Below are positions 6,440 through 47,753 of a stretch of DNA of 48,137 bases, one piece after another. The notes under the pieces were generated by a model. That model made no database searches, was not told where the DNA came from, and saw nothing but the letters and a program-made list of their open reading frames with translations. A program made the position numbers and the translations under genes. The first letter of the stretch is position 1; each line of letters opens with the position of its first letter. Source of the DNA: an uncultured Barnesiella sp. (GTDB lineage Bacteria > Bacteroidota > Bacteroidia > Bacteroidales > Barnesiellaceae); NCBI GenBank assembly GCA_944320015.1, contig CALUFO010000019.1, positions 1 to 48,137 on the forward strand, in the 5' to 3' direction.

Positions 6440-6451
6440 AATCGATATTAT

Positions 6452-7300: not shown

Positions 7301-7318
7301 TCGACCTATAAATATGGA

Positions 7319-7348
7319 AAAAGGATGATAAACCTTTATCACCCTTTT
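7319..7348. repeat. Inverted repeat upstream of murI
   Basis: Arms 7319-7332 and 7335-7348 match over 14 bases with one mismatch (AAAAGGATGATAAA against its complement) and only two bases between, so this is a near-palindrome of 30 bases. It lies 18 bases before the murI start and could be an operator or a leader hairpin. Confidence 0.45.
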
Positions 7349-7354
7349 ATACAA

Positions 7355-7369
7355 TCCCTCAACGAGGGA
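7355..7369 (-). terminator. Small hairpin after skp
   Basis: TCCCTC (7355-7360) and GAGGGA (7364-7369) form a 6-base stem with a three-base loop, four bases downstream of the skp stop on the minus strand, followed by TTGTAT. A weak terminator at best. Confidence 0.35.
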
Positions 7370-7372
7370 GAT

Positions 7373-7888: not shown

Positions 7889-7948
7889 ACTATATGTTTT
7901 TTATTTCTATATGCTATGTGATAAAAACGACGCCACAAAAATACGCAT

Positions 7949-8464: not shown

Positions 8465-8542
8465 ATTACATACTCATTTAATTAAACATTTGACTTGCCC
8501 TGCCGAAGAATTTTCCCACAAGACAATCTCCAAAAAATAAAG

Positions 8543-8570
8543 ATAGCGTGATTCTATCAAATCACGCTAT
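8543..8570 (-). terminator. Intrinsic terminator between bamA and skp
   Basis: ATAGCGTGATT (8543-8553) pairs perfectly with AATCACGCTAT (8560-8570) over 11 bases with a six-base loop. On the minus strand it is followed by CTTTATTTTTT. It would end or attenuate the uppS-bamA transcript before the skp genes. Confidence 0.75.
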
Positions 8571-8613
8571 ACTTTTAAACCATTTAACAAAATAGGGTCT
8601 ATTTTTCCACAAA

Positions 8614-11289
8614 TTAAAATTCCTGTCCCAAGATGAAGTGGAAATGGCCTCCACCTCGTTCGCCCTGCACCTTGTCGAAACCATAGGCCCAATCGATACC
8701 CATCAGACCAATCATCGGCAGGAAGATACGCACACCCACACCGGCCGAACGTTTCAGCGAGAAGGGGTTGAAATTCTCGAGCTGGGTCCAGGCATTACCG
8801 CCCTCGACAAAGGCCAAACCGTAGATGGTCGACGAGGGTTGCAACAGGAACGGGAAGTGCAACTCCATCGAGAAGCGGGTATAGGCACGACCGTCATAAT
8901 AAGGCGTGAGCGAGTTGTTGTCATAACCTCTCAAACCGATGGTCTCGGTAGCATAGGTATAGGAACCGGTCATACCGTCACCTCCCACACAGAAGGTCTC
9001 GAAGGGGGTCTGTTTGTATTTGTTGTACGAGCCCAGCAAACCGAAGTCGGCACGGCCCATCAACACAAGTGTATATTTCTCGGAGTTGTTCAACGGCGTA
9101 TATACACGGCTCTTGAATTTAATTTTGTAATATTCGATCCAGCGGTAGAGTTTCTCACGGTCGGCCTGCGAGTTGCTCTCATAGAGGCTCTTGTAGTCGG
9201 TCTTGGAGAAGAGCGAATACGGAGGTGTTATCTGAGCCGACAAGGTAAATTGCGAACCTCGACGTGTGTAGATGGGGTTGTCAATAGAGCTACGTCCCAA
9301 CGTCAGCCCCAGCGTGAAACTATGCGAAGTACCGTTCTGCATATAGTAAAGGTACTCCCAGTTTTTAAGGATATAGGCCTGATAACCCAGCTCGGCCATG
9401 AAGGTGAAATAGTCGTCGGGCCACTCCAACCGTTTACCGAATCCGAGCGATACGCCCACCATCTGCAACGACTTGCTGGGGTCGAGCGCGTTCTCATAGA
9501 TATTTTGGTAGTAATCGTTATAGTTGCCATAATAATTACCATAGTACCCACCGTAATAATTGCCATAATATCCTCCATACAGGGCATTGTTGTAAAGGTT
9601 GTTATAAGCACTGCTCAAAAACGAGCTTTCGATACCGGTCTGGCGGCTGTAATAGGCCGAGAACTGGAACGAGTTGGGACGTTTCCCGCCGAACCACGGA
9701 TCGTAGAACGAGATACTGTATTGTTGGTAATAGCGGGCATTGGTTTGCGCGCTTATGGTGAAGGTCTGGCCGTCGCCTTGCGGGATAATCCCCTTGAACG
9801 ACTTGGGGTTCAACAGGTTTTTAACCGAGAAGTTGGTAAATTTCAAACTGAGTTTACCAATCACACCGGTTTGCCCCCAACCGGCCGAGAACTCGATTTG
9901 GTCGTTGGCTTTCGATTCGAGATTATAAATCAAATCGACCGTACCGTTCTCCTCGTTAGGCTCGGGCCTGATGTCCATTGTCTCGGGGTCGAAGTGTCCC
10001 GTTTGGGCGATCTCACGAGCCGAACGCATCAAGTCCGATTTACTGAACAGTTCGCCCGGTTTCGTACGCAACTCCCGGCGAATCACATGCTCATACAACC
10101 GGTCGTTACCATTGATCACCACCTTGTTGATACGGGCTTGCGGCCCCTCGAAAAGGCGTATTTCCAAATCGATAGAATCGTTTTGCACATTCCCCTCGAT
10201 GGGAACCAACTGGAAGAAGAGATAGCCACGATCCATATACAGGTTGGCCACAGCGTCTTCGTCCTCCATCGTACGTTTGTTCAACATCTTTTGGTTATAG
10301 ACGTCGCCCGGTTTCATATTCAACACCGCCGACAGATAGTCCGACGGATAGACCGTATTGCCCACCCAATCGATATTGCGAATGTAGTATTTGTCGCCCT
10401 CGTCGATCGTAAGGTACACATCGACAGTCTTCTCGTTATAGCGCACTACACTGTCGCTCACAATAGCGGCATCGCGATAACCCAACTCGTTGTACTTCTC
10501 GATAATGAGGTTTTTATCGTTGGCATAGTTCTCCTCGACAAATTTTTTCGTCCGGAACAGGTGGAGCAAGTTTCCTTTCTCGTTGGTCTTTTTCATCGCC
10601 CATTTGATTTTCCGGTCCGAAAGCACCTTATTCCCTTCGATATATATTTTGTGAACCTTGATTTTCTCTTTCTTATCGATATAAATGTCTACGATCACCT
10701 CGTTTTCGTGGGAAAGGTCGTCGGTCTGCTGGATATTCACCTCGGCATTTTTAAAGCCCTTCTCTTCGAAATGTTTCTTGATAATCGTTGTGGCGCGGTC
10801 TACGATATTGGGTGTTATCTGGTTTCCTTTGACCAAACCCAGACGCATTTCCAAGTCTTCCCGTTCGCTCTTTTTGATGCCGTGATAATTGATTTGCGAA
10901 ATACGGGGTTGCTGTTTCAGTTGGATTTCGAGCCACGCTTTATCGCCATAGGCTTTGGTCCATTTGATCACCACATCAGAGAAGAGCCCTTGTCTCCAAA
11001 ATTTCTTGGCGGCATCGGTAATAGCGTTACCCGGGATTTCAATGACCTGTCCCACTTCGAGGCCCGAATACCCGATCAACACATAATCTTCATAGTTGGG
11101 AGCTCCGGTAACGGTAATCCCGGCGATCTCGTATTTTTGGGGAATTGCCGAATAGACGACTTTCGGATTGTATATGGTATCGAGTTTCTCTTCGGTCTGG
11201 GCCGTCACAGCCGCCACGCCCAAAGACAAAAACAAAAAAACAGCCAAACTCCTCAAAGGCATATTATATCGCATTTTCAATTTCTTCAT
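8614..11289 (-). CDS. bamA: Outer membrane protein assembly factor BamA
   Basis: An 891-residue outer membrane protein: signal peptide ending near VTAQ, five POTRA repeats (about 50-440; for example KIKVHKIYIEGNKVLSDRKIKWAM), then a 16-strand barrel ending in the C-terminal signal FILGQEF. BamA folds and inserts beta-barrel proteins. An unusual feature is a repetitive Gly-Tyr-Asn-rich stretch (about residues 565-597, YGGYYGNYYGGYYGNYYGN type), likely in a surface loop of the barrel. The start codon directly abuts the uppS stop (TAAATG), so the two are translationally linked; skp genes follow. Confidence 0.95.
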   Translation of the reverse strand: MKKLKMRYNMPLRSLAVFLFLSLGVAAVTAQTEEKLDTIYNPKVVYSAIPQKYEIAGITVTGAPNYEDYVLIGYSGLEVGQVIEIPGNAITDAAKKFWRQGLFSDVVIKWTKAYGDKAWLEIQLKQQPRISQINYHGIKKSEREDLEMRLGLVKGNQITPNIVDRATTIIKKHFEEKGFKNAEVNIQQTDDLSHENEVIVDIYIDKKEKIKVHKIYIEGNKVLSDRKIKWAMKKTNEKGNLLHLFRTKKFVEENYANDKNLIIEKYNELGYRDAAIVSDSVVRYNEKTVDVYLTIDEGDKYYIRNIDWVGNTVYPSDYLSAVLNMKPGDVYNQKMLNKRTMEDEDAVANLYMDRGYLFFQLVPIEGNVQNDSIDLEIRLFEGPQARINKVVINGNDRLYEHVIRRELRTKPGELFSKSDLMRSAREIAQTGHFDPETMDIRPEPNEENGTVDLIYNLESKANDQIEFSAGWGQTGVIGKLSLKFTNFSVKNLLNPKSFKGIIPQGDGQTFTISAQTNARYYQQYSISFYDPWFGGKRPNSFQFSAYYSRQTGIESSFLSSAYNNLYNNALYGGYYGNYYGGYYGNYYGNYNDYYQNIYENALDPSKSLQMVGVSLGFGKRLEWPDDYFTFMAELGYQAYILKNWEYLYYMQNGTSHSFTLGLTLGRSSIDNPIYTRRGSQFTLSAQITPPYSLFSKTDYKSLYESNSQADREKLYRWIEYYKIKFKSRVYTPLNNSEKYTLVLMGRADFGLLGSYNKYKQTPFETFCVGGDGMTGSYTYATETIGLRGYDNNSLTPYYDGRAYTRFSMELHFPFLLQPSSTIYGLAFVEGGNAWTQLENFNPFSLKRSAGVGVRIFLPMIGLMGIDWAYGFDKVQGERGGGHFHFILGQEF

Positions 11290-34126: not shown

Positions 34127-35275
34127 ATGGAGTACAGAGTATTAGGAAGAACCGGCATACGGGTAAGCGCCATAGCGCTCGGCTGCGAGGGATTCATGAA
34201 CAAAACGGCCAAAGAGGTGAAAGCCGATTTCGATTTTGCTATCGACAACGGTATCAACTTCGTCGACATCTATTCTTCGAATCCCGAGTTGCGATCCCAC
34301 ATCGGAGCCGCATTGGAGGGTCGTAGGGAAAATTTTGTCATACAAGGGCACCTATGCACCACTTGGGAAAACGGCCAATATCTGCGCACCCGTGACTTGC
34401 AAAAAGCCGAAGCCTCGTTCGACGATCTGCTTCACCGACTTCGCACCAACTACCTCGATATAGGCATGATACACTATGTCGATGCCGAAGATGATTTCCA
34501 CACAGTATTCGACCACGGAATCATCGACATGGCCCTGCGGTTGAAAGCCGAGGGGAAAATACGCCACATCGGCATGAGCAGCCACAATCCCGTTATCGCC
34601 AAAATGGCGGTGAAAACCCGGCTGATCGATGTCATACTCTTCTCGGTAAACCCCTGCTACGACCTGCTCCCTCCCAACGAAGATGTCGATGTGCTATTCG
34701 CCCAAGAGAGCTACAACCGCACATTGCACAACATCGACCCCGCACGGGAACAATTCTACAACCTATGCGCCCGGGAAGGTGTGGGTATCGATGTGATGAA
34801 AGTCTTTGGCGGAGGCGATTTGCTCAATCGGGAAAACTCTCCTTTCGGTTTCGCCCTCACCCCGGTACAAGCCCTCGAATACGCCTTGACCCGCCCCGGC
34901 GTGGCCGCAGTTATGGTAGGCTGCAAAAACAGGAACGAAATAGCCGAGGCCGTCGCTTGGTGCGACGCTTCGCCCGAAGAGCGGGACTACACCTCGGCCT
35001 TGGCTCGCTCCGACAAATTTTCTTGGCAGGGGCACTGCATGTATTGCGGACACTGCGCCCCCTGCACCTCGAAAATAGACATTGCCTCGGTGAACAAATT
35101 TTATAATTTAACTGTTTTTCAAAATGAAATTCCCGAAACCGTGCGAGAACATTACAAGGCACTTCCACACCACGCATCGGAATGTGTCGAATGCGGAGCC
35201 TGCGAGACTCGTTGTCCGTTTGGCGTGAAAATCATCGAATCCATGCGACGAGCCGCACAACAATTTGGGTATTGA
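34127..35275 (+). CDS. Aldo/keto reductase-like protein with iron-sulfur tail, catalytic residues altered
   Basis: A 382-residue protein without signal peptide: reductase barrel (1-~280) and C-terminal clusters CMYCGHCAPC and CVECGACETRCPFG. In the barrel, the region matching FDTAxxYG reads FVDIYSSNPE, with Asn at the catalytic Tyr position, and the region matching the catalytic Lys (xxTKxG) reads FVIQGHLC. The His (MIHYVD) is kept. It therefore may not be an NADPH-dependent aldo/keto reductase, and could be an electron-transfer or binding partner. Starts six bases after the Tat reductase. Confidence 0.82.
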   Translation: MEYRVLGRTGIRVSAIALGCEGFMNKTAKEVKADFDFAIDNGINFVDIYSSNPELRSHIGAALEGRRENFVIQGHLCTTWENGQYLRTRDLQKAEASFDDLLHRLRTNYLDIGMIHYVDAEDDFHTVFDHGIIDMALRLKAEGKIRHIGMSSHNPVIAKMAVKTRLIDVILFSVNPCYDLLPPNEDVDVLFAQESYNRTLHNIDPAREQFYNLCAREGVGIDVMKVFGGGDLLNRENSPFGFALTPVQALEYALTRPGVAAVMVGCKNRNEIAEAVAWCDASPEERDYTSALARSDKFSWQGHCMYCGHCAPCTSKIDIASVNKFYNLTVFQNEIPETVREHYKALPHHASECVECGACETRCPFGVKIIESMRRAAQQFGY

Positions 35276-35436
35276 CACAGTCCCCAAAACGACTATCACA
35301 TGAAGTAAATAACCGAGAAGCTCACCCCTGTGGCTTCTGCCGAATTGCGCTGTGGACACACATAGAGAGCCTCCCGAGAGACTTCTCTCCGAAACAGCCA
35401 GTTTGCAAACCGAAAAAAGAAGAATTGTATAAACGA

Positions 35437-37359
35437 ATGAAAACTACATTTTTGCTCCTTTCTTTATGCTTGGCCGGACCCGCTTCGGCTCAAAACGACA
35501 CCCCCAACGAAAACACGCTCCTTGCCATGGCCGGGAAACCTACCGACCCGATTCACATCGACGAAGTTGTCGTTACCGGCACACGCAATGAAACGGATGT
35601 GCGACATCTTTCCCAGACCGTATCAGTAGTGGGGCGTTCCGTGATCGAACAGAGTATGCAGCCGTCACTCCTGCCCGTGCTGACCGAACAGGTGCCGGGA
35701 CTTTTCGTCACCGAGCGTGGCGTGATGGGCTACGGCGTGTCCGATGGACAGGCCGGAACCATCTCCTTGCGCGGCCTGAGCGGAGGCAGCGCACAACTGA
35801 TGGTGCTGATTGACGGGCATCCACAGTATGCTGGCATTTTCGGGCACCCGATAGCCGATGCCTACCAGTCGCTGCTTGCCGACCGGGTGGAGGTGCTACG
35901 CGGCCCGGCATCCGTGCTCTACGGCTCGAACGCTATGGGCGGTGTCATTAACATCGTCACCCGCAAGATGCACGAGGACGGAGTACGCACCGACCTTCAC
36001 GCCGGTTATGGCTCGTACAACACGCTGGAAACGGAACTGACCAACCGTGTACGCAAAGGACAGTTCAACAGCGTGGTGAGCGGCTCTTACAACCGCACGG
36101 ACGGGCATCGTGCCGATATGGGATTCGAGCAATACGGCGGCTACGCCAAGCTGGGCTACGAGGTCACCGACAACTGGAACATGTATGCCGACGTGAACGT
36201 GACGCACTTCAACGCTTCTTATCCCGGTCCGGTGTCAGCTCCATTGGTAGACGGTGACCAGCGTATCACACGCGGAGTGACATCCTTTGCCCTCAGCAAC
36301 AACTACGAAAAGACCTCCGGCGCCCTGAGTTTCTTTTACAACTGGGGCGACCATTGGGTTAACGACGGCTATACCCCCAGTGCAGGCGAGACCTCACAGG
36401 ACGGGCGTTTCAATTCCAACGACGACATGATGGGCGTGTCGCTCTACCAGAGCACCCGGTTCTGGAAGGGAAACCGTATCACGCTGGGCTTCGACTGGTT
36501 CCGTTACGGCGGCAAGGCTTGGACGGACTATGTGTCGGGTGAGAATGCCGGAACACGCAGCTACTTGGTGGACAAGCACGAGTATGAGGTGGCCGGTTAT
36601 GTAGATTTCCGTCAAGACATCGGGCACTGGCTGACGCTGAATGCCGGACTTCGCGTTGACCACCACTCGCGTGTCGGTACGGAGTGGATTCCGCAAGCCG
36701 GACTCGCCTTTCATCTGCCGCACGCCATCGAACTGAAAACATCTGCCACCAAAGGGTTCCGTTATCCCATCCTGCGTGAGATGTATATGTTCCCTCCGCA
36801 GAATCCCGACTTGCAGCCGGAGTCGATGTGGAACTACGAGATTGCCCTGTCGCAGACGTTGCTGGACGGACGGTTCAAATACGGAGTAAATGTCTTCTAC
36901 ATCGACGGCAAGAACCTCATCATGCGCTTGCCCAATCCCAATGGAACAGGTATGCTCAACCAGAACTCCGGCACGATAGATAATACCGGCGTGGAACTTC
37001 AAGCAGCATACCGCATCAATAGGGAGTGGTCGGTAGACGGCAATTACAGTTTCCTGCACATGGAGAATCCGGTCATTGCCGCACCGGAGCATAAACTATA
37101 TGCCGGAGCCAATTTCACCAAAGGCCGCTGGAGCGTTTCCTCAGGTCTGCAATATATTGCTGGACTGTACACAACCGTTGGCGACAATCCGCAGCAGGAG
37201 GATTTTGTACTGTGGAATCTGCGGGGCTCTTTCCGCATCTGCAAGTGGCTTAATGTCTGGGCGCGCGGCGAGAACCTGCTGGCTCAGAAATATGAAATCA
37301 ATGCCGGCTATCCCATGCCACGCGCCACGGTCATGGCCGGCGTAAACCTGAAATTCTAA
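35437..37359 (+). CDS. TonB-dependent receptor (no N-terminal CarboxypepD domain)
   Basis: A 640-residue outer membrane receptor: signal MKTTFLLLSLCLAGPASA, TonB-box-like IHIDEVVVTGTRNETDV, plug (QVPGLFVTERGVMGYG, ISLRGLSGGSAQLMVLIDGHPQYAG, DRVEVLRGPASVLYGSNAMGGVINIVT) and a barrel ending in MAGVNLKF. It has no SusD partner, so it likely takes up a small chelate or cofactor. The ATG at 35437 was chosen because it begins the signal peptide; 161 bases upstream are non-coding with a small hairpin. Its base usage seems a little different from the redox genes on either side. Confidence 0.9.
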   Translation: MKTTFLLLSLCLAGPASAQNDTPNENTLLAMAGKPTDPIHIDEVVVTGTRNETDVRHLSQTVSVVGRSVIEQSMQPSLLPVLTEQVPGLFVTERGVMGYGVSDGQAGTISLRGLSGGSAQLMVLIDGHPQYAGIFGHPIADAYQSLLADRVEVLRGPASVLYGSNAMGGVINIVTRKMHEDGVRTDLHAGYGSYNTLETELTNRVRKGQFNSVVSGSYNRTDGHRADMGFEQYGGYAKLGYEVTDNWNMYADVNVTHFNASYPGPVSAPLVDGDQRITRGVTSFALSNNYEKTSGALSFFYNWGDHWVNDGYTPSAGETSQDGRFNSNDDMMGVSLYQSTRFWKGNRITLGFDWFRYGGKAWTDYVSGENAGTRSYLVDKHEYEVAGYVDFRQDIGHWLTLNAGLRVDHHSRVGTEWIPQAGLAFHLPHAIELKTSATKGFRYPILREMYMFPPQNPDLQPESMWNYEIALSQTLLDGRFKYGVNVFYIDGKNLIMRLPNPNGTGMLNQNSGTIDNTGVELQAAYRINREWSVDGNYSFLHMENPVIAAPEHKLYAGANFTKGRWSVSSGLQYIAGLYTTVGDNPQQEDFVLWNLRGSFRICKWLNVWARGENLLAQKYEINAGYPMPRATVMAGVNLKF

Positions 37360-37380
37360 CCTCTATAAAATAAATATACT

Positions 37381-38361
37381 ATGCAAACCAAATTCATCTC
37401 TATCGTCTTATGGTCACTCCTGACGGTGACATTTGGGTTCGGCTGCAACTCCCAAGCCCAAAATCAAGAACAATCACTCTCACAAAAAGAACAAAGTGTC
37501 GCCAAAGTATATATGTTTAAAGAGATTACGCCCGAGAATCTGGTAAAAATCTACGAAGTTCTGGGACGTGAAGCTACCGGCAAAGTAGCTATAAAACTAT
37601 CAACCGGCGAACCGGGTGGCCATAACTTCCTGCAACCGGCTCTTATCAAAGGACTCGTACAGCAAGTAAACGGGACCATCATCGAGTGCAACACAGCCTA
37701 TGGAGGAGGCCGCTCCGATACTGAAAGCCATTTGAAAGCAGCTGCCGACCACGGATTTACGGCTATCGCCCCCGTCGATATTATGGACGCCAACGGTGAG
37801 ACAGACCTCCCGGTTACAGGGGGTAAACATCTCACCCGGGATATTGTAGGGAAAAACTTCCTGAATTATGATTTTACCATTGTCTTGTCTCACTTCAAGG
37901 GCCACGCTATGGGCGGATTCGGAGGCGCTATCAAAAATATGTCGATTGGTATCGCCTCGGCAAACGGCAAGCGTTATATCCATTCGGCCGGAGCAAGCAC
38001 GACCAGTTGGGGCAGCCCCGAACAAAACGATTTCCTCGAATCAATGGCCGAAGCCGCAAAAGCGGTAGCCGACCATTGCGGGGACAATATCCTTTACATC
38101 AGCGTGGCCAACAACCTGTCGGTAGACTGTGATTGCGACTCCTCTCCGGCAGACCCCGAAATGGGCGACATCGGCATTCTTGCCTCGCTCGACCCCGTGG
38201 CATTGGACAAAGCCTGTACCGACTTGGTTCGCAGCTCCGAAGACCACGGCAAGATTCATCTCATCGAGCGTATCGACTCCCGTAATGGAATGCATACCCT
38301 CAAATATGCCGAGCAGATAGGGCTTGGTAGCCAAGACTATCAATTGATAGCTCTCGACTGA
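37381..38361 (+). CDS. DUF362 family lipoprotein
   Basis: A 326-residue exported protein with signal peptide ending near FGFGC (Cys22, probable lipid site) and the DUF362 core: VAIKLSTGEPGGHNFLQPALIKGLVQ, ECNTAYGGGRSD, VLSHFKGHAMGGFGGAIKNMSIGIA, and DPVALDKACTDLV. DUF362 proteins often come with ferredoxins and are of unsettled function. This one lacks the usual ferredoxin domain, but neighbours provide many. It lies 21 bases after the TonB receptor gene, so belongs to the same transcript, and a strong hairpin follows. Confidence 0.87.
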   Translation: MQTKFISIVLWSLLTVTFGFGCNSQAQNQEQSLSQKEQSVAKVYMFKEITPENLVKIYEVLGREATGKVAIKLSTGEPGGHNFLQPALIKGLVQQVNGTIIECNTAYGGGRSDTESHLKAAADHGFTAIAPVDIMDANGETDLPVTGGKHLTRDIVGKNFLNYDFTIVLSHFKGHAMGGFGGAIKNMSIGIASANGKRYIHSAGASTTSWGSPEQNDFLESMAEAAKAVADHCGDNILYISVANNLSVDCDCDSSPADPEMGDIGILASLDPVALDKACTDLVRSSEDHGKIHLIERIDSRNGMHTLKYAEQIGLGSQDYQLIALD

Positions 38362-38479: not shown

Positions 38480-40786
38480 CTAAAACGAGAACTTCACCCC
38501 AGCAAAGTAGCTACGAGGCATAGATGGGCCATAGATATAACCCGAGTCACGGTCTTTCCCTTGATCGAAATCGCGCTGATAGGCATTGAAAATATTCTGC
38601 ACTCCGGCATTCACCTGTAACGTGATGAGTTTATAGAGAGTAAAATCGTACGACACTTTCAGATTCATATCGAAGAAATCGGGAGTGGTCTCGGCCACGT
38701 CTTTGGGAATATACCCTTTCATGTGCTGCACGAGCATAGAGCCCGTATAGGTTCCCGAGAGAGCGATATTCAACGGTTTTATCGGGGTATAAGTAGCCGT
38801 GAAATAGCCATACCAGTCGGGAGTGCGGAATATGCGCCTTTCGGCGGGGACAGTCTCGTCCTCGCTCCACTTCTCGGGCTCGGTATAATGGCTTTGCTGC
38901 CAAGTGACTCCGGCCTGTAACTGGATAAGCGAAAGATAGGCGATCTTGCCTTCGACCGTTATGCCGGCAACCTCGGCGCCTTTCCCGTTGCGACGCTCTT
39001 TCACCGTGGCGTGATGAACTTCGTCCCAGCCTATATCTTCCAACACAAACACATCATTCAACCGGGTATAGAACCCTTCGAGCAACAGATTACACTGGAA
39101 CGCCCCGAAACGACGATACATATCGGCCGACAGGCTCAGGCTATGCGACTTTTCCTCTTTCAGATTTCCAGCCTGTTGTATAATCGTGCCCTCGCCGCCC
39201 ACTGCGGCCACATGCAAATCCTCGTCGTAGGTCTGAGGAGCCCGGAATCCCGACGAATAACTAAACCGCAAATTGACACTCGGCACAGGATTGAAACGCA
39301 CATTGGCTCTCGGGCTGAAAATCACATGGTCGATAAGGTTGTGTTTGTCGAGCCTTCCCCCCACGAGGAAACTCCAACGCTCGTTTTTCCACTCGTTCTG
39401 CAAGAATGCGCTCCCGATATGGACCTCTTGGCGGGTCTTGCGATTGTATCCTTTCATTTCGTCGTGCAACTTGTCATAGTTATACTCGACACCGGCGGTC
39501 AAGTCGGCCGGCATGAAAAGGCACCGGTCGAAACTATATATATACTGTCCTCCGGCCACAACCGTGAGGTCACTGGTTTCGCCATAAGCATCGAGATTCT
39601 GTTTTGTCCCGTAGTAACTGTTTCGGTCGATATGTTGCGCCGAGACATATATATTCGCCCGATGCTTCTCATTGGGCGAAAACAGGCTGTAATTAACGCC
39701 TCCTCCATTGATCGAGTGGTCCAGTTGCTCGGCTATATCGGCCTCGTGCGGGGGACGGCTCAACAAATTGCCGCCCCGGCGATACTCGTCGATATGATGA
39801 TATTCGAGCGTGAGTTTGGAGTAATTGCTGGTTTTCAAATAGGAGCGGAATCCCAGTGTCTGGGCGTTCAATTCGGGCAACTCGGTAAACCCGTCGCCGT
39901 CGTGGTCATAACCGCCTCGCTCACGGTTCTGCCCGAATACATACAAACCGGCTTTTCCGTCGTCGGTTACCAACGATGCGTTCAGCGATGTCGTGTTTTC
40001 AATATCGGCGCTCCCTCCTATCGAGGTCACATTGTGCGAGAGCGAACCACTATTACGCAAAGGTTCTTTGGTAATAATATTAATAGTCCCGGCAATGGCC
40101 GAGGCGCCAAACAACGCCGAACCGCCGCCACGCATCACTTCGACCCGCTCGATCATATTGGCCGGAATCTGTTCCAAGCCATACACCCCCGACAACGCGC
40201 TGAATATCGGGCGGGAATCCATCAATATCTGCGTATATGGACCGTCGAGTCCATTGATACGCACCTGTTGGAATCCGCAGTTTTGGCAATCATTCTCAAC
40301 CCTCACTCCCGGCTGGAAATTCAAACCCTGAGCCAATGTATTGGAGTTGGTATGTTCAAAGGTTTTTATATTCAACACATTGACCAGTGTAGGCGCCAGC
40401 TGGCGTGTGGTCTCACTACGATTGGCCGAGACCACAACCCCGTCCAACGCCACGGTACTGGGCTCGATTTCAAAGTCGATTTCTATCGTAGTCCCTTTTT
40501 TCAACGACACTTTACGGCTCTCGGTCTTATAGCCCACCGACGAAGCGTTGAGTATAAACTCCCCTTCCGGCAGGTTTTTCAAGAAATAGTGCCCCGAGGC
40601 GTCGGTTATCGTCCCCACGGTCGTTCCTTTCAAAGAAATACTGATGTAGGGCAAGTGCTCCCGGGTGGTTTTGTCCAAAACATGGCCTACAATATTTATA
40701 TCAAGCGATTTCTGCGTGCCAGGCTCGGCTGGCGACACGGCTATGACATGCCACAGGCATATCCACAAAACTAAATACTTTTTCAT
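38480..40786 (-). CDS. TonB-dependent receptor with N-terminal CarboxypepD domain
   Basis: A 768-residue receptor: signal peptide (~1-21), CarboxypepD_reg-like domain (~32-115; DINIVGHVLDKTTREHLPYIS), plug (~125-245) with ENDCQNCGFQQVRINGLDG and NMIERVEVMRGGGSALFGASA, and a barrel ending YFAGVKFSF. The CxxC in the plug (DCQNCGF) is unusual. No SusD partner. The gene upstream encodes a small His-rich membrane protein, which suggests a metal or metal complex as cargo. Metal specificity is inference. Confidence 0.9.
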   Translation of the reverse strand: MKKYLVLWICLWHVIAVSPAEPGTQKSLDINIVGHVLDKTTREHLPYISISLKGTTVGTITDASGHYFLKNLPEGEFILNASSVGYKTESRKVSLKKGTTIEIDFEIEPSTVALDGVVVSANRSETTRQLAPTLVNVLNIKTFEHTNSNTLAQGLNFQPGVRVENDCQNCGFQQVRINGLDGPYTQILMDSRPIFSALSGVYGLEQIPANMIERVEVMRGGGSALFGASAIAGTINIITKEPLRNSGSLSHNVTSIGGSADIENTTSLNASLVTDDGKAGLYVFGQNRERGGYDHDGDGFTELPELNAQTLGFRSYLKTSNYSKLTLEYHHIDEYRRGGNLLSRPPHEADIAEQLDHSINGGGVNYSLFSPNEKHRANIYVSAQHIDRNSYYGTKQNLDAYGETSDLTVVAGGQYIYSFDRCLFMPADLTAGVEYNYDKLHDEMKGYNRKTRQEVHIGSAFLQNEWKNERWSFLVGGRLDKHNLIDHVIFSPRANVRFNPVPSVNLRFSYSSGFRAPQTYDEDLHVAAVGGEGTIIQQAGNLKEEKSHSLSLSADMYRRFGAFQCNLLLEGFYTRLNDVFVLEDIGWDEVHHATVKERRNGKGAEVAGITVEGKIAYLSLIQLQAGVTWQQSHYTEPEKWSEDETVPAERRIFRTPDWYGYFTATYTPIKPLNIALSGTYTGSMLVQHMKGYIPKDVAETTPDFFDMNLKVSYDFTLYKLITLQVNAGVQNIFNAYQRDFDQGKDRDSGYIYGPSMPRSYFAGVKFSF

Positions 40787-40880
40787 TCTTTTCGATTCTA
40801 AATAATAAATACACAGGTTGCCTTCTCCAACTCCTCACGAGCGGGAAGAACACAATCATTCTATTCTCAAGCGGGAAATA

Positions 40881-41228
40881 TTATAGAATCGAAACAGGTG
40901 GAGCGCGCAGCCCATGTGCCCTCCACTCCTCGGTTATGCTATAAAATGAATAAACCGGGAGGTACAACCGGCAGCTATATGCAAACAATACCGCTGCAAA
41001 GAACAGCCACATCGCCGGCTCGGGCGTCGTGATGTTCGACAGGAGATGTATCAATTGGAACTCGGCCGTCGTATGCTCATGCCCCCCGCCTGGCTGGTAG
41101 GGGTGGGAATGGACTATCGTCACCCCGTTGATCACATGCGTGTGGGTAAACAGCGAGATACAGCCTATATACGAAAGAAACAATACAGGCAAAAAATATT
41201 TCGCTATGTCGTGGAGCAGCCGTTTCAC
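40881..41228 (-). CDS. Small His-rich membrane protein
   Basis: A 115-residue protein with hydrophobic segments near 11-28 and 70-95. Between them is a histidine-rich loop, LFTHTHVINGVTIVHSHPYQPGGGHEH (split here: THTHVING, TIVHSHPY, GGGHEHTT), suited to binding zinc, copper or nickel. I recall similar short proteins next to TonB receptors in Bacteroidetes but cannot name the family with certainty. A good -7 element is 24 bases upstream, and the TonB receptor gene follows after 94 bases. Confidence 0.75.
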   Translation of the reverse strand: MKRLLHDIAKYFLPVLFLSYIGCISLFTHTHVINGVTIVHSHPYQPGGGHEHTTAEFQLIHLLSNITTPEPAMWLFFAAVLFAYSCRLYLPVYSFYSITEEWRAHGLRAPPVSIL

Positions 41229-41251: not shown

Positions 41252-41280
41252 CAAAGATACGACATTCCGGCCGGTTCTAC
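41252..41280 (-). promoter_or_regulatory. Promoter of the His-rich protein/TonB receptor pair
   Basis: Minus-strand TATCTTTG (41259-41252) is an exact -7 match, with ATTG about 20 bases upstream as an imperfect -33. The spacer holds CCGGCCGG, a perfect palindrome that a metal regulator could use; this last point is speculative. Confidence 0.6.
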
Positions 41281-41334
41281 AATAGATAAAATCACGGCGG
41301 GATATCTCCCGGGACAGAGGTATATCACCACTTG

Positions 41335-43821
41335 TTATTCGCCCACTGCCTCGGCGAGCGGGACAAATGTGTATCCTCTCTTTTGTAATTGGCGAATGAG
41401 ACGCTCGAGATAACGGTCATAAAACTTATCGGTACGTCTCTCGTCTGTCCCCAAATGGAAAAGCAAGATGTGGCCGTTGAGGCCTTCACGCCGTTCCACC
41501 TCCATTACCCGGTTGTATATCGCCTTGCTGCTGCGATAATTTTTCATGTCGGGAGTGGTATAGTCGGCATTGGTCCATGTACCTGCCGTAAAATTCACCA
41601 CCTTCAATCCCAAGCCCCTCGCCCAAGCCGAAACGGTTTCGTTGTAATATTCATACGGCGGGATAAAAAGAGTGGTGTGAGAAACATCGATTCCCGCCCG
41701 TGCCATGCGGGCATATATCTTCGCCATGTCTTCTTCGAAAAGCGCTTGGCTCACAAGGGTAGAGTCGCGACGCTCCCAAGCGCAATAAAGCAAATGTCCG
41801 TCGCTATGCGCCCCCACATAATGCCCGGCCTCGCACAACTCTCGCACCGTGGCGGGAAAGCGTTCATAGAACGAGCCTGTAAAGAAAAACGCGCCCTGCA
41901 CTCCGCAGGCGTCCAAGACCTCCAATATACGCCTTGTCCCGTCATTTTTATCGGCAGCCGTAAACACGAGCGAAATTTGTTTTTTCGAAGCGTCGGTTCG
42001 TACGACACCCCCATAGGCATACTCGTTTTTATCCGCTCCGCAAGCCGTAATCCCCTCTTTCTGCAAAGAAGAAAGCAAATAACTGAGACTGGCCGTGCCG
42101 TCCATCGTAGGCTCATTGGTTGAATAATCCTGTATGTCGTCGTGATAAACAATTTCGGGCGATTGAAAGCGTGCATAAGGATCCTCCCGCGACAACCGCA
42201 CACCCCTCAAATTATTGAAAATCGAAGCATACACAGGGCCGTCGACCAGTCCTCCCACGGTCGTTCCCGCCTTCAAGGCTATCAACGGGGTATGCGGGTC
42301 CACCGGATAGTCGCCCCACAAAGGCAACTCGGTAATCATACTCGTTCCCCACGGATTGCACCCAAACAGCCAATCGATCAACGATGCCTCCATTTCCCGA
42401 TAACGGTCATCGCCGGTCAACTCCCTATAAAGGCGGCATTGGGTTGCCGCGGCGACGGTAAGATTATTGGAACACCAAATAGCGGGCACCCCATTGAAAA
42501 AGGGACTCCCTTGCGCACGCTGGTATATCCGCTCGATGCCGCTGCGCAAATTGCGGGTAAACTCCCGGCTCACCCGGGCGTCGGAGCTTCCCGCCAAATG
42601 ATAATGCCCCAAGTTGATGAAAGGATACCACTGATAATGGCGGGCACTGTCGGCGCCCATCCACGGAGTGACCGGTTCGAAACGGCCATACTCGACAGCC
42701 TCCCGCAAAAAACGCCGCTCCCCCGTCGAAGCATACAACTGCGCCGCCGCCAATTCCATGTCGTCGGTCCAATTACACTCCTCATAGATATAGGGCGAAA
42801 CGACCGAAGCGGTTTGACAAACTCCGGGATTGTCGGCTCCATACCGATAGGCGGCACGAGCTTTGGCAAGCAACGTATCGGCCATCTCGGGATAAAAGTC
42901 GCTCAAAACCTCGGCGCCCAACGCAAAACACGAAGCATACTTCCCCGCAGTACTGGCAACGCCGGTCGTGGCGTTGGTGAACTCTCCCCGCACTTGCGGT
43001 TCTCCCGAACAATAATAAACCGGACGTCCCGTACCTGCCCCCCAACCATAATCGATATTATCTTGCGAAGGCAATTTAAATCCTTTATGGTCCCGGTCGT
43101 CGGCGATTTGGTTGTACATCTCGCCCGGAGCAGGGTTCATGCGGTTGAGCCAGTCGAGCCCCCATTTGATTTCATCGACAATATCGGGGATACCGTTGGC
43201 GCCGGGCAAACCGTTGGCGTCGTATTCATCGCCATACACTTCGGGGTTTTTCAAATAAGCAAACATCATTTGGTAAGTAGCGTTGGCCGACGTGGTCACA
43301 TATTGCAACTGGTCGCTCGCATCGTGCCACCCTCCCCGCGCATCTATTCGTTCGCCGCTACGAGTGGGGTGATAAACGATATAACCATCGTATGTATGGC
43401 AGCTATCCCTTTCAAACGGATTGAATCCACACCGCTGTTGCCTCATATACCGCAAGATGAAATCGGCCGTACCGTCATACACCCGATACCCGATAACAAA
43501 GCGGGGCGAAAAGGTTGCTCCCGCCCGCAACCGATAGGTGCCGGGCTCCTCGAAATTGCCGAAATCGAGCCGGTATAGCGACTTCATATCGCCCCATGTG
43601 CCGGCGGCTTTCGGGGTATGGAACTGGCGCACCGTATCCCCCGTAAAAGCGTCGACAAGCGAGAACTCCGTTATGGCGTTCTCCTCGTCGCTCATATATA
43701 CGGCAACCTTGGGCGACCCGGGCAAATAGCCCAACTGGTTGACTCGAATCCACTCGCCCGCCCATACCGGGACAAGCAAGGCTATAATCGCTATGGCAAT
43801 GACAGAAAAAACACGTTTCAT
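41335..43821 (-). CDS. Glycoside hydrolase family 9 fused to a polysaccharide deacetylase-like domain
   Basis: An 828-residue exported enzyme. Signal peptide (~1-21), an N-terminal Ig-like domain (WIRVNQLGYLPGSPKVAVY), and a GH9 catalytic domain with the Asp pair in ARGGWHDASD (167/170) and the acid Glu in YSTNEPTMDGTAS (~570). From ~605 it continues into a NodB/CE4-like domain: SLVFTAADKNDGTRRILE, metal-binding HSDGH (~670), FIPPYEYYN and ILLFHLGT. GH9 includes cellulases and exo-glucosaminidases; the deacetylase domain and neighbours point to amino-sugar polymers. It overlaps the symporter gene by four bases. Confidence 0.88.
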   Translation of the reverse strand: MKRVFSVIAIAIIALLVPVWAGEWIRVNQLGYLPGSPKVAVYMSDEENAITEFSLVDAFTGDTVRQFHTPKAAGTWGDMKSLYRLDFGNFEEPGTYRLRAGATFSPRFVIGYRVYDGTADFILRYMRQQRCGFNPFERDSCHTYDGYIVYHPTRSGERIDARGGWHDASDQLQYVTTSANATYQMMFAYLKNPEVYGDEYDANGLPGANGIPDIVDEIKWGLDWLNRMNPAPGEMYNQIADDRDHKGFKLPSQDNIDYGWGAGTGRPVYYCSGEPQVRGEFTNATTGVASTAGKYASCFALGAEVLSDFYPEMADTLLAKARAAYRYGADNPGVCQTASVVSPYIYEECNWTDDMELAAAQLYASTGERRFLREAVEYGRFEPVTPWMGADSARHYQWYPFINLGHYHLAGSSDARVSREFTRNLRSGIERIYQRAQGSPFFNGVPAIWCSNNLTVAAATQCRLYRELTGDDRYREMEASLIDWLFGCNPWGTSMITELPLWGDYPVDPHTPLIALKAGTTVGGLVDGPVYASIFNNLRGVRLSREDPYARFQSPEIVYHDDIQDYSTNEPTMDGTASLSYLLSSLQKEGITACGADKNEYAYGGVVRTDASKKQISLVFTAADKNDGTRRILEVLDACGVQGAFFFTGSFYERFPATVRELCEAGHYVGAHSDGHLLYCAWERRDSTLVSQALFEEDMAKIYARMARAGIDVSHTTLFIPPYEYYNETVSAWARGLGLKVVNFTAGTWTNADYTTPDMKNYRSSKAIYNRVMEVERREGLNGHILLFHLGTDERRTDKFYDRYLERLIRQLQKRGYTFVPLAEAVGE

Positions 43822-45293
43822 ACACTCGGGCTTTGAGGAGATGCCGATGTCGGCTTTTTAATTAAGAACAACAATCCCACGAATGTAAACAACGCATTCA
43901 ATATCAGCAGCTCATAACTAAACGAATATCCGCCAAACCACGCCTGTGAATTGCGGTCTATAACGAAACAGAGTATCGGCGACGCTATGGCTACCACAGG
44001 TATATATTTGTCTTTCACCGCTTTCTTGACAAAAATACCGAATGCAAACAGGCCCAAAATAGGACCATAAGTATAGCTGGCCAATGTATATACGGCATCG
44101 ATTACACTCGTGTTGTTCAGCAAATTAAACACAAATATCACAGCACCCATGACGAGAGCCATATACACATGCACCCGCTTGCGCAATCGCACGACTTGCC
44201 GCTCGCTCTTGCCTTTCACGCCCACTATGTCGACGGTAAAAGAGGTTGTCAAAGCGGTAAGCGCCGAACCGGCCGCCGAATAGGCCGAAGAGATAAGCCC
44301 GATTACAAACAGGACTCCCACAATCACCGGGAAATAACCCTGTGTCGCAATCATCGGGAACAACTCGTCGCTCTTCTGTGGCACTTGGACTCCGTTTTTT
44401 CCGGCATAGACATACAGCAAAACACCCAGCATAAGAAACAGGGCTACCACAAAAAACTGCGCGATACCGCTCGTTATCATGTTTTTCTGTGACTCTTTGG
44501 AATTTTTGCAACTCAGGTTGCGCTGCATCATATCTTGATCGAGGCCATTCGTGGCAATCATCGTAAAGACTCCGGCAAGAAACTGCTTGAAGAAATAACG
44601 CTTGTCGTCCACATCGTCGAAAAAGAACATTTGCGACATATCCGACTCGCTAATCGTCTGCCAAAGCCCGCCAAAGTCGAGATGCAAATCGGTAGCGATA
44701 TAATAGATACAGAGGATAACCGAAATGACAAGACACGCCGTTTTAAGGGTATCGGTCCAAATCAACGACTTCACGCCTCCCCGGAACGTATAGAGCCACA
44801 CCAATCCCACGGTAAATATCACATTCAAGACAAACGGAAGTCCAAACGGCTCAAAAACAAGCATCTGCAACACAATACAAACCAAAAACAGCCGTACCGA
44901 AGCCCCCAACATCTTAGAGATAAAGAAGAACCAAGCTCCCGTGCGATATGACGACATGCCGAATCGGTTCTCCAAATACTCATAAATAGAAACCAAATTC
45001 ATCTTATAGAAAAGCGGAACCAGCACATAGGCGATGAGCAATTGTCCCACGACAAACCCCAATACCATCTGCAAATAAGAAAAGCTGCTGGCAGCTACCA
45101 TACCGGGCACCGAAACAAACGTCACTCCCGATATCATCGACCCGATCATCGCAAAAGCCACAATATACCACGGCGACTTGCGATTCCCCACGAAAAAACC
45201 TTGATTGTCGGCTCGATGGCCTACCACATATGAAATACCGAACAATACGACGAAATAAGAAAAAATCGTAATTAATACTACTGTTGGTGACAT
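43818..45293 (-). CDS. Sodium:solute symporter (SSS family)
   Basis: A 491-residue membrane protein with ~13 hydrophobic segments and SSS features: AFAMIGSMISGVTFVSVPGMV, YEYLENRFG, LASYTYGPILGLFAFGIFVKK and FVIGLISSAYSAAGSALTALTTSF. Members carry sugars, sialic acids, amino acids and other solutes with sodium. Because it lies between a DUF1343 muramidase gene (28 bases upstream) and a GH9-deacetylase gene (4-base overlap), N-acetylmuramic acid or a related amino sugar is the likely cargo; Tannerella forsythia has a MurNAc transporter (MurT) which I recall as this type. Confidence 0.87.
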   Translation of the reverse strand: MSPTVVLITIFSYFVVLFGISYVVGHRADNQGFFVGNRKSPWYIVAFAMIGSMISGVTFVSVPGMVAASSFSYLQMVLGFVVGQLLIAYVLVPLFYKMNLVSIYEYLENRFGMSSYRTGAWFFFISKMLGASVRLFLVCIVLQMLVFEPFGLPFVLNVIFTVGLVWLYTFRGGVKSLIWTDTLKTACLVISVILCIYYIATDLHLDFGGLWQTISESDMSQMFFFDDVDDKRYFFKQFLAGVFTMIATNGLDQDMMQRNLSCKNSKESQKNMITSGIAQFFVVALFLMLGVLLYVYAGKNGVQVPQKSDELFPMIATQGYFPVIVGVLFVIGLISSAYSAAGSALTALTTSFTVDIVGVKGKSERQVVRLRKRVHVYMALVMGAVIFVFNLLNNTSVIDAVYTLASYTYGPILGLFAFGIFVKKAVKDKYIPVVAIASPILCFVIDRNSQAWFGGYSFSYELLILNALFTFVGLLFLIKKPTSASPQSPSV

Positions 45294-45321
45294 CCTTCTT
45301 TCTATTTAAATTTAACGGTGA

Positions 45322-46488
45322 TTACTCTGCATATAACAAATAGGGACGACGCTGTTCCCTGAATTTCTCCACATCGCCGCGCCACATCGCCTTTATCTCG
45401 TCGGCCGACTTTCCCTCCTTAATCATCTTACGCACATAATCCACACCGATGAGTTTCTCAAAAAACGGGCGGAAGAAATGATCGCCCAAATTAAGGTTGC
45501 GATAGGCGTCGATCACATATTCGAGGTTGATGCCCTTGGCCCATATCTCCTCGTCGGTGAGATGCGTCAAATCCACTCCATAACACTTCTTGTTCAACAA
45601 AGGAGGATTTTTCGCCCCCGGCACACTACGGGGAGTAAACGAGAATGTATATCCGATCATATTGGGGTGCCCATACACTTGGAACGGCCAATCGGTACCC
45701 CGTCCCAAACTTACCGGAGTAGCTTCGAAATAACATATCGAAGGATAGAGATATATCGATCTCATATTCGGCAAATTGGGCGACGGCGGGATAGGCAGCA
45801 CATAACGGGTTTGATGCGTGTAATTCAAACAAGGGACAACCGTCAAATCGCACACCCGTCCCTCCGAAAGCCAATGCTCTCCATTCACCATACGGGCCAG
45901 CTCGCCCAACGTCATACCATGCACCACCGGTATAGGCAACCACCCTACCCCCGATTTATACTTCATGTCGAGAATAGGGCCATCGATATAATGTCCGTTC
46001 GGATTCGGCCTATCCAGCACAATTACCTTGCGTCCAAACTCGGCACAGGCATCCATCAACTTCACCATCGAAATATAATAGGTATAATACCGCAAACCTA
46101 CATCTTGAATATCGACCAACAAGACATCGAACGACCGCATCGACTCATCGGACGGACGCCCCGACTTGCCATCGTACAACGAACTGATTTTTATACCTGT
46201 TTGAGGATCGACCGAGCCGGCCACATGTTCTCCCGCATCGGCATCGCCCCGGAAACCATGCTCCGGCGAAAAAATCGTCACCACATCTATACCGTCGGCC
46301 ACCAGCATATCCACCAAATGGCGGTCTCCGACCATACCCGTGTGATTGGAGAAAACCGCCACTCGCTTCCCCGTCAAGGCACGATAATACTCCCCGGTAC
46401 GTTCGGCACCCACGATCACAGAACGATTGGCCGGATAAATCGAAAAAACACAACAAATCAAACACAAAAACAAAATCGATTTTTTCAT
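45322..46488 (-). CDS. DUF1343 exo-beta-N-acetylmuramidase, NamZ-like
   Basis: A 388-residue exported protein: signal peptide MKKSILFLCLICCVFSIYPA, then VAVFSNHTGMVGDRHLVDML, TIFSPEHGFRGDADAGEH, DVLLVDIQDVGLRYYTYI, RPNPNGHYIDGPILDMKYKS and FWPFQVYGHP-like DWPFQVYGHP. DUF1343 is now GH171 (NamZ), which removes terminal MurNAc from the non-reducing ends of peptidoglycan fragments. It leads an operon with the SSS symporter and the GH9-deacetylase. Intact length and motifs suggest function. Confidence 0.88.
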   Translation of the reverse strand: MKKSILFLCLICCVFSIYPANRSVIVGAERTGEYYRALTGKRVAVFSNHTGMVGDRHLVDMLVADGIDVVTIFSPEHGFRGDADAGEHVAGSVDPQTGIKISSLYDGKSGRPSDESMRSFDVLLVDIQDVGLRYYTYYISMVKLMDACAEFGRKVIVLDRPNPNGHYIDGPILDMKYKSGVGWLPIPVVHGMTLGELARMVNGEHWLSEGRVCDLTVVPCLNYTHQTRYVLPIPPSPNLPNMRSIYLYPSICYFEATPVSLGRGTDWPFQVYGHPNMIGYTFSFTPRSVPGAKNPPLLNKKCYGVDLTHLTDEEIWAKGINLEYVIDAYRNLNLGDHFFRPFFEKLIGVDYVRKMIKEGKSADEIKAMWRGDVEKFREQRRPYLLYAE

Positions 46489-46688: not shown

Positions 46689-47717
46689 TCACTTATCGGA
46701 ATCCAAAAATTCGCGATAGCGCAAAAAAGCGTCAGTAATATCGGGCTGCACCTCCGCCTTGAAAAAGCTCGCCTCCTTGCGAGGATGCCAATTGCCCACC
46801 ACAACCCCATCGTGGAGAATCACAGGATAGAACAGTCCGTTATTGCTGTATGCCCGGTGCCTGAACTCCTCTTCGAGCACATGGTGACGGCTCTTGTATC
46901 CAAGCAAATATTCATCATAAGAAGGCAACAATATAGTCTGCTTGCGATAGCCCCTCACCCGGGAATCCCGATGAACAAAATAGGTATTCCCCGCATACCG
47001 CTCCGCGACCATTTCACCCCGAATCCCCTCGACGGCATCGCGGCATTCGCCCACACCGAGGTTCGTCCACCAAACAAAATCCTCGAAAGTCGCCGGAGAA
47101 TGACTTTGGAAATATTTCCGAGCTAACAAAACGACACTCTCCTCCCGCAAAAAATGGCAAGAACGAGGTATCCTGTCATCGACCAAAGCATAAGTATTCT
47201 GCCGATTATCCAACTCCCCACTGCAAACAATGCCGTCCAACTCGGCTCGGCGCAAATAAATCGACATCATATGGGCATCACCCGCAAGCCCCCGCTCGGC
47301 CAAGCAAGCCAAAAGAGCATCCTTCCGCATAGAACCTCGACCCACGAGCGATTCATAAATAAGACGATTGGCACGCTCATACTCCCGCTCATCGACCGTT
47401 CGCCCACGATAAGCGAGATACCCCTTGATAGCCGACCGATTCCTATCGGCGCACAACGCAAGCATCCACCGCAAATCCTCGGCGGCGACCAATTGCCATG
47501 TACAACGGAAAAGATGCGACCTCACGATACGCCCCGAATCATACGCTTCCCGAAAAGCTCTCATCGAAGGCCGCTTCAACCTCATGCCCACAGCCCAACG
47601 CATCATCTTATATTCTTGAGCCTGCAACATACCCATCCACGACACCATATCGTGAACATCGGAATACTGAGGCGCAACCAATTGTTGACTAAGAAGCCTT
47701 ATATGAGATATATTCAT
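46689..47717 (-). CDS. Winged-helix (HTH_42) protein, AlkZ/AlkX-like DNA glycosylase family
   Basis: A 342-residue protein of the HTH_42 family, with tandem winged helices. Near the start is LQAQEYKMMRW, matching the QxQ motif (Gln32, Gln34) used by AlkZ-type glycosylases to unhook interstrand crosslinks; later motifs are LLPSYDEYLLGYKSR and PVILHDGVVVGNWHPR. I chose Met at 47717 (MNISHIRLLSQQL) as the family start; an ATG at 47753 adds 12 unrelated residues. It stands alone, with no obvious operon partner. Confidence 0.82.
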   Translation of the reverse strand: MNISHIRLLSQQLVAPQYSDVHDMVSWMGMLQAQEYKMMRWAVGMRLKRPSMRAFREAYDSGRIVRSHLFRCTWQLVAAEDLRWMLALCADRNRSAIKGYLAYRGRTVDEREYERANRLIYESLVGRGSMRKDALLACLAERGLAGDAHMMSIYLRRAELDGIVCSGELDNRQNTYALVDDRIPRSCHFLREESVVLLARKYFQSHSPATFEDFVWWTNLGVGECRDAVEGIRGEMVAERYAGNTYFVHRDSRVRGYRKQTILLPSYDEYLLGYKSRHHVLEEEFRHRAYSNNGLFYPVILHDGVVVGNWHPRKEASFFKAEVQPDITDAFLRYREFLDSDK

Positions 47718-47753
47718 CTGAATCGCTATTGCCCGGTAATTCAAATAGATCAA

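Follow-up and report, generated by a model that had tools for sequence, protein, structure and literature searches.

The three-gene unit

The window analysed here is the whole 48,137-nt contig CALUFO010000019.1 (C19) of assembly GCA_944320015.1, from an uncultured Barnesiella sp., and our subject is a unit of three genes that lie head to tail on its minus strand. In reading order, they encode a muramidase of the NamZ family, a sodium:solute symporter of the SSS family and a protein in which a glycoside hydrolase family 9 (GH9) domain is fused to a domain resembling carbohydrate esterase family 4 (CE4) (Table 1). According to the open reading frame (ORF) calls, 28 bases separate the first two genes and the second and third share a 4-base overlap, and all domain calls of the three proteins exceed the Pfam gathering scores. 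An earlier description made without database searches, hereafter the sequence-only reading, had named these genes and spacings, and the coordinates and Pfam domains confirm them exactly. The unit probably serves to release amino sugars from fragments of bacterial cell wall by means of an enzyme of a supposed cellulase family.

Table 1. Coordinates of the three genes, the domains of the fusion protein and the hairpin that follows it
Feature	Position	Strand	Details
NamZ2-type exo-beta-N-acetylmuramidase (predicted)	45322..46488	-	388 amino acids; NamZ_N 45763-46362, NamZ_C about 45331-45753
SSS-family (PF00474) sodium:solute symporter	43818..45293	-	491 amino acids
CelD_N-GH9-CE4-like fusion	41335..43821	-	828 amino acids
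CelD_N (PF02927) Ig-like domain of fusion	43516..43758	-	residues 22-102, Pfam
GH9 catalytic domain of fusion	42073..43479	-	Glyco_hydro_9 residues 115-583, Pfam
CE4-like C-terminal domain of fusion	41347..42000	-	Polysacc_deac_1 residues 610-742, Pfam
Short terminator-like hairpin 3' of fusion gene	41298..41311	-	weak evidence

The identical three-gene order is found in Barnesiella An55 (L003) and An22 (L004), at 82-91% identity, and is therefore neither a product of chance nor an assembly fault; chance adjacency was also rejected in view of the recurrent linkage in other lineages described below, the order being kept in three Barnesiella genomes when the window is included. By inspection, the N-termini of NamZ and the fusion resemble signal peptides and no lipobox was seen in either sequence, so both proteins are most likely located in the periplasm. 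The structure model of the fusion has a mean predicted local distance difference test score (pLDDT) of 91.0 and a predicted template modelling score (pTM) of 0.91; its weaker loops lie around residues 241-250, 341-350 and 391-400.

A salvage cluster on another contig of the same genome

The kinase and etherase genes for N-acetylmuramic acid (MurNAc), murK and murQ, lie outside the window, as had been noted from the sequence, and homologues of both are present on contig C13 of the same genome. A profile search of the genome returned MurQ there with 324.7 bits, above the curated cut-off, within a one-strand run of genes for MurK-like, MurT-like, flavin adenine dinucleotide (FAD) oxidase, NamZ1, AmpG-like, SpoIID and DUF4922 proteins. 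The MurK-like protein has a BadF score of 31.0, just below the 31.5 of Pfam, and MurT, which has no Pfam match, was assigned by 61% identity to the Tannerella forsythia gene that precedes murK. Further C13 genes encode glycosyltransferase-, metallophosphatase- and xanthan-lyase-like proteins (the last is a Golvesin_C protein, to judge from its homologue in T. forsythia), two NAGPA proteins, and a K1058-like kinase and an Amidase_3 protein that precede the MurQ run. Since the product of MurQ would be D-lactate, the FAD oxidase is plausibly a D-lactate dehydrogenase. With murQ and its neighbours found, the idea of an organism devoid of MurNAc metabolism was rejected.

Homologues of MurQ, MurK, MurT, AmpG and the AmpG-linked NamZ stand together on C13 as in the T. 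forsythia operon (Tanf_08345-08385: AmpG, MurT, MurK, MurQ), and the homologues and gene order of T. forsythia OH1426 match the C13 cluster in large part. The MurTKQ operon of T. forsythia is experimentally tied to MurNAc use; the studied counterpart is that of strain ATCC 43037, whose gene names glycosyltransferase and xanthan lyase we follow (PMC5388701, PMC5790795). Barnesiella differs from T. forsythia in that NamZ2, the symporter and the GH9-CE4 protein form a unit of their own, outside the MurQ cluster and on a separate contig (C19 versus C13).

Several further observations concern this cluster. The block upstream of the K1058-like gene (L123:7328-15722) comprises Amidase_3, a 303-residue protein and the two NAGPA (phosphodiester glycosidase) proteins, and a homologous Amidase_3/NAGPA block with the fusion inside it is found in two Paludibacter metagenome-assembled genomes (L059/L066). 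An FAD-oxidase/CCG protein adjoins NamZ1 and MurT in salvage clusters (L084:10439-13246, L121, L124, L125), which fits D-lactate oxidation, and a K1058-type kinase recurs in salvage neighbourhoods (L087, L111, L119, L120, L121, L123), near the xanthan-lyase-like gene or SusC. Contig C26 of the Barnesiella genome (G000) encodes, at 5961-8951 (L110), a GH3/beta-lactamase protein of 996 residues with the architecture of the one that stands beside MurQ in genome G145; it is possibly a NagZ-type enzyme that could also remove N-acetylglucosamine (GlcNAc).

Linkage of the fusion to salvage genes in relatives

From 582 relatives of the fusion, the best 80 were surveyed for salvage genes in their flanks, which are short in some loci. 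Gene calling took the longest ORFs that do not overlap and may have missed some, and locus L039 holds no intact fusion ORF; NamZ, MurQ, MurK, MurT, AmpG, FAD oxidase, the xanthan-lyase-like protein and K1058 were counted as core salvage genes. At least one tested salvage homologue was found in the flanks of 14 of the 80 loci (in one, just a weak 30% match) and a core gene in 10. As a rough estimate from the 164 NamZ that 148 genomes contain, genomes of 2-6 Mb for the most part, about 1% of 18-kb stretches at most would include one.

The arrangements differ from one lineage to the next. In genome G121, a single series reads SusC-SusD-GHL10-NamZ2-SSS-glycosyltransferase-DUF4922-AmpG-NamZ1-MurT-MurK-MurQ-metallophosphatase-GH9CE4, and in Bacteroides luti the fusion is followed, after 359 bases, by SusC-SusD-SSS-xanthan-lyase-like-K1058-...-AmpG-NamZ1-FAD oxidase-MurT-MurK. 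Genome G145 has the order GH9CE4-NlpC/P60-MR_MLE-GH3/beta-lactamase-MurQ-SSS, while three loci of a Paludibacter type hold SSS, the fusion, NlpC/P60, MR_MLE, a Golvesin_C (xanthan-lyase-like) protein and NamZ, with a GH20 by Pfam in addition in one of them (L054). In L059 and L066, the fusion is embedded in a gene block that corresponds by homology to a section of the C13 cluster. T. forsythia OH1426 carries a unit K1058-SusC-SusD-SusC-SusD-GH9CE4 (SusD by Pfam) divergent from its MurTKQ operon, the operon at 57-69 kb, K1058 at 69835-70716 and the fusion near 81.7-84.2 kb; it is not among the 14 linked loci because its cluster starts beyond the examined flank. The fusion is thus recurrently linked to MurNAc salvage machinery in several lineages, as the sequence-only reading had anticipated in tying a GH9 to muramyl-sugar salvage. 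A lack of co-occurrence of the three genes in relatives, which that reading had named as part of its refutation, was not observed; the exact three-gene order was seen in Barnesiella only.

A tree of 48 fusions was used to follow this linkage, with 13 rows labelled by hand as salvage-linked and 35 as unlinked (L046 and L068 among the latter despite an SSS match nearby); the labels depend on flank length, the midpoint root serves for drawing only and G121 sits on a long branch. Linkage requires at least 4 state changes on the tree, against a mean of 11.6 in shuffled labels, and none of 500 shuffles was as low. Eleven of the 13 linked rows fall in one half of the tree together with 5 unlinked rows, and 30 of the 35 unlinked copies form one clade, to which Barnesiella is sister. 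An old linkage with one main loss would be the simplest reading of this distribution.

Co-occurrence was also counted at the genome level. Among 148 sampled genomes of the order, the fusion is present in 5, a GH9-only orthologue (44-56% identity) in another 5 and a NamZ in 143. Of the 10 genomes that carry a GH9(-CE4) orthologue, 8 have two or more NamZ, against 10 of the 138 without (Fisher p 3.7e-7, uncorrected for kinship); for fused genes only, the figures are 4/5 versus 14/143 (p 7e-4, likewise uncorrected). A second set of 49 fusion genomes was drawn from 50 of the 80 loci, hand-picked mostly for longer flanks and with L028 left out; judging by the places of the matches, the genomes of L003 and L010 also belong to the 148-genome sample. 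An SSS match of at least 58% identity occurs in 33 of these 49 genomes versus 3 of the 138 without a GH9(-CE4) orthologue (Fisher p 3e-21, uncorrected for kinship). NamZ at 57% or more is found in 39 of the 49, both SSS and NamZ in 31 and the two side by side in 22, so a genome in which the fusion stands by itself usually still carries the pair. At the thresholds applied, no NamZ match (1e-60) was obtained in three of the 49 genomes (G176, G190, G193) and no SSS match (1e-150) in 13, T. forsythia included.

NamZ2 and the symporter

Enzymes of the NamZ family (GH171) detach MurNAc from the non-reducing terminus of glycan pieces derived from the cell wall. The window protein scores 245.6 bits for NamZ_N and 106.8 bits for NamZ_C (Pfam gathering scores 26.9 and 25), two domains that it has in common with NamZ1 and NamZ2 of T. 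forsythia and with the NamZ of B. subtilis. Its identity to the two NamZ of T. forsythia OH1426 is 45% for the second and 31% for the AmpG-linked one, whereas the C13 NamZ is 71% identical to the AmpG-linked protein; the two Barnesiella copies are 33% identical to each other. By these identities, the window protein is a NamZ of the second type, distinct from the C13 copy, with a predicted muramidase activity. Both names, NamZ1 and NamZ2, are borrowed from the title of a reference, and we infer which locus each belongs to.

The symporter matches PF00474 (SSF) with 95.2 bits (cut-off 22.8) and TIGR00813 with 163.6, below the cut-off of 184. A symporter match of at least 59% identity is present in 7 of the 148 genomes of the order and adjoins NamZ in six, the exception being G038. 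NamZ2-SSS is a conserved pair: the symporter gene directly follows NamZ2 also in genomes where the fusion gene is elsewhere or was not found, and in several Bacteroides the pair lies inside the salvage cluster.

The two halves of the fusion protein

The GH9 half matches PF00759 with 234.9 bits (cut-off 27.7), and residue conservation was counted over 48 fused homologues. The catalytic residues D167 and D170 (GGWHDASD) and E570 (NEPTMD) are invariant in all 48, and an insert longer than that of the aligned endoglucanase 3x17 carries residues that are invariant or nearly so (ADDRDH at 240-245, R266, P267, V268, Q276, N283). The best solved relatives of this half are the endoglucanases 3x17, J30 and BoGH9A, the last a xyloglucanase. 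With the GH9 exo-beta-glucosaminidases VC0615 and PBPRA0520, the fusion has the family, the fold, the N-terminal beta domain and the catalytic Asp and Glu residues in common; it differs from them in its CE4-like domain and its different conserved insert, and its identity to VC0615 is 24%. The GH9 half may act in exo or in endo fashion.

In canonical CE4 enzymes, the TFDD of motif 1 provides the catalytic base and the metal-binding Asp, and the H(S/T)xxH of motif 2, the motif 5 His and the motif 3 Arg complete the set. The CE4-like half of the fusion matches PF01522 (Polysacc_deac_1) with 56.1 bits (cut-off 23.1) and retains part of this set: the motif 2 histidines H672 and H676 (HSxxH, with S at position 673 in 44 homologues and G in 4), the motif 5 histidine H789 and E724 are invariant in 48/48. 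Motif 1 reads FTAAD in the window protein, AD occupies 623-624 in the two Barnesiella, and D or E stands at 624 in 43 of the 48. A different version, F(T/S)GHE, is found in 9 of the 13 salvage-linked rows, HE at 623-624 occurring also in 5 of the 35 unlinked ones. GH9 and CE4 are separate neighbouring genes in G016 and G119 and lie on different contigs in G115, and in G066 the CE4-like half alone was found at the identity used; the corresponding stretches of the split CE4-like genes read FTGDEYADG, FSADEFGEG, FTGGDFNDG and FSADKAFEG. One in-frame TGA interrupts the CE4 stretch of G016.

Proposed function and its alternatives

The membership of the unit in a salvage system, proposed in the sequence-only reading, is shown by context: MurQ, MurK-, MurT- and AmpG-like genes are present and NamZ2-SSS is a conserved pair. 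It is probable, on the whole of this evidence, that the unit constitutes the periplasmic amino-sugar release and uptake part of a peptidoglycan-salvage system of Bacteroidales, the substrate and reaction of the fusion being predicted only. NamZ2 would take MurNAc off the non-reducing end of cell-wall glycan fragments and expose a GlcNAc end, the putative substrate of the GH9-CE4 protein. The CE4-like domain might then trim or hold the N-acetyl group, a predicted activity and the weakest step of the scheme, and the GH9 domain would cut the terminal glucosaminyl unit, so that the two enzymes could alternate and peel the glycan chain. The freed amino sugar, MurNAc or a hexosamine, would enter with sodium through the symporter, and in the cytoplasm the MurT-, MurK- and MurQ-like proteins and the FAD oxidase of C13 would convert MurNAc to GlcNAc-6-phosphate and D-lactate, the reaction being that given in the T. 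forsythia papers.

A number of results weigh against this proposal. No tested salvage gene was found in the examined flanks of 66 of the 80 fusion loci, and the chain around GH9 and CE4 in G016 and G119 consists of a ROK kinase, MFS and SIS, with creatininase and GH20 as well in G016 and with MurNAc genes absent, which would suggest amino-sugar use. Genomes G190 (Ignavibacteriae, L072), G193 (Latescibacterota, L078) and G176 gave neither NamZ nor SSS matches at the thresholds above, and on account of G190 and G193 the tie between fusion and salvage is, as far as shown, confined to Bacteroidales; both Fisher comparisons ignore kinship. The Barnesiella genome has seven GH3 matches, the GH3/beta-lactamase protein among them, so that GlcNAc removal may not need a GH9. 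In the fusion itself, canonical motif 1 is replaced, T621 and A622 standing in its place in the alignment with 7y51 and 7fbw (T or S and A, G or S in all 48 homologues), and the arginine of motif 3 (RxPY/RPPY) is lost, residue 720, aligned to the R of 7y51, being I, L, V or M in 48/48. Ranks 1-16 of the Foldseek search are taken by endoglucanases, the cellobiohydrolase CbhA and a xanthanase, and the first GH9 exo-glucosaminidase structure, 5dgq, comes at rank 17. The loop between helices 9 and 10 spans about 14 residues (437-450) in the model, and the long loop of the exo-glucosaminidase type is not present in the model or when mapped to VC0615, in which it has 39 residues (404-442) and closes the -2 subsite (PMC6096475). 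That the GH9 half belongs directly among the exo-glucosaminidases of the Vibrio type was considered and is borne out by neither loop nor rank. The earlier interpretation is partly supported overall; an exo-glucosaminidase of the Vibrio mechanism and an active deacetylase lack firm support.

The uptake step is the part for which another account has the best prospects. The cargo of the symporter may be MurNAc or a freed hexosamine, and there is a considerable chance, somewhat short of even, that it imports hexosamine freed by the GH9 (glucosamine or GlcNAc) or a muropeptide sugar while MurNAc enters through the C13 MurT homologue. The MurT homologue adjoins murK in the Barnesiella genome itself and the symporter gene overlaps that of the fusion. 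Given this MurT homologue, the proposal in the sequence-only reading that the symporter imports MurNAc lacks firm support; the position of SSS directly after NamZ2 in genomes with the fusion elsewhere or not found nonetheless suits a NamZ product.

Nearly as plausible, though held with less confidence, is that the CE4-like domain is a non-catalytic or re-purposed module and that GH9 alone acts on an N-acetylated or de-N-acetylated sugar end. The replacement of TFDD and of the RPPY arginine throughout the 48 homologues suits such a module, as does BA3943, titled a CE4 pseudoenzyme, which at rank 50 is the sole CE4 structure in the list of 50 Foldseek matches. On the other side, the invariant histidines and E724, together with the new F(T/S)GHE motif, give the appearance of a rebuilt site rather than of decay.

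It is improbable that the fusion serves another amino-glycan, such as chitin or chitosan oligomers or host glycans, with peptidoglycan as a side use. The two-enzyme chitin routes of Vibrio and archaea proceed by a deacetylase followed by an exo-glucosaminidase, the same logic of acetyl removal and glucosaminyl-end cleavage as is proposed for the fusion; the fusion differs from them in uniting both parts in one protein, in its peptidoglycan context and in its non-canonical deacetylase motif. The G016 and G119 clusters favour such a role, and a part in chitin use has been proposed for Vibrionaceae GH9 exo-glucosaminidases (PMC6096475), but MurQ, MurK and NamZ, which are specific for MurNAc, are its neighbours in more lineages. 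Least probable is that the GH9 enzyme hydrolyses beta-glucan or xyloglucan in the usual way, carries an esterase-like domain besides and lies near NamZ-SSS incidentally: its solved relatives, the two fusion genomes outside Bacteroidales without NamZ and SSS matches and those copies of the 30-row clade that come from Bacteroides, Prevotellaceae and Muribaculaceae, which lie outside any salvage cluster in the examined flanks, would fit this, but the same salvage genes are linked to the fusion repeatedly and in differing arrangements, most unlinked copies are that single clade next to Barnesiella, and no second GH9 of the genome was matched by the fusion at E 0.001, no GH9 profile search having been run.

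Implications

GH9 proteins are usually taken for cellulases. If peptidoglycan salvage is the function of the unit, a set of Bacteroidales 'cellulases' has been misread and works on cell-wall fragments, and T. forsythia and its relatives gain a candidate enzyme for turning foreign peptidoglycan into free amino sugars. Among the titles and abstract openings of the literature matches listed, none links a GH9 to MurNAc or peptidoglycan salvage; the word 'cellulase' is absent from the main text of the T. forsythia operon papers searched, and 'GH9' from the one in which it was sought. A more specific proposal, which we consider doubtful, is that the proteins form a distinct GH9-CE4-like family, ancestral in SusCD-bearing peptidoglycan clusters of Bacteroidales, that takes off the glucosaminyl end remaining after NamZ action and feeds the sugar to the MurK paralogue K1058. 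It offers a concrete hypothesis for this orphan kinase, whose candidate substrate would be glucosamine or a de-N-acetylated muramyl sugar; the authors of the K1058 work assume that its natural substrate is not MurNAc (PMC10465942).

Genes and signals around the unit

Terminator-like hairpins in the scanned region number 20, against 9.6 expected from shuffles, and many are intragenic. Downstream of the fusion, at 38480-41228 on the minus strand, lie a gene for a histidine-rich protein of 115 residues and then one for a TonB-dependent receptor, perhaps for metal uptake; An22 has the same pair after its fusion gene, and An55 lacks it there. A TATCTTTG box, a Bacteroidales promoter motif, at 41252-41259 suggests that the pair has its own promoter, and with the weak hairpin and this box in between and the pair missing in An55, it was not counted with the operon. 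On the plus strand, 35182-38361 holds another TonB-dependent receptor (B12/siderophore-like profiles, below cut-offs) with a DUF362 protein close behind, and an AlkZ-like DNA glycosylase (PF06224) is encoded upstream of the unit on the same strand, at 46689-47753.

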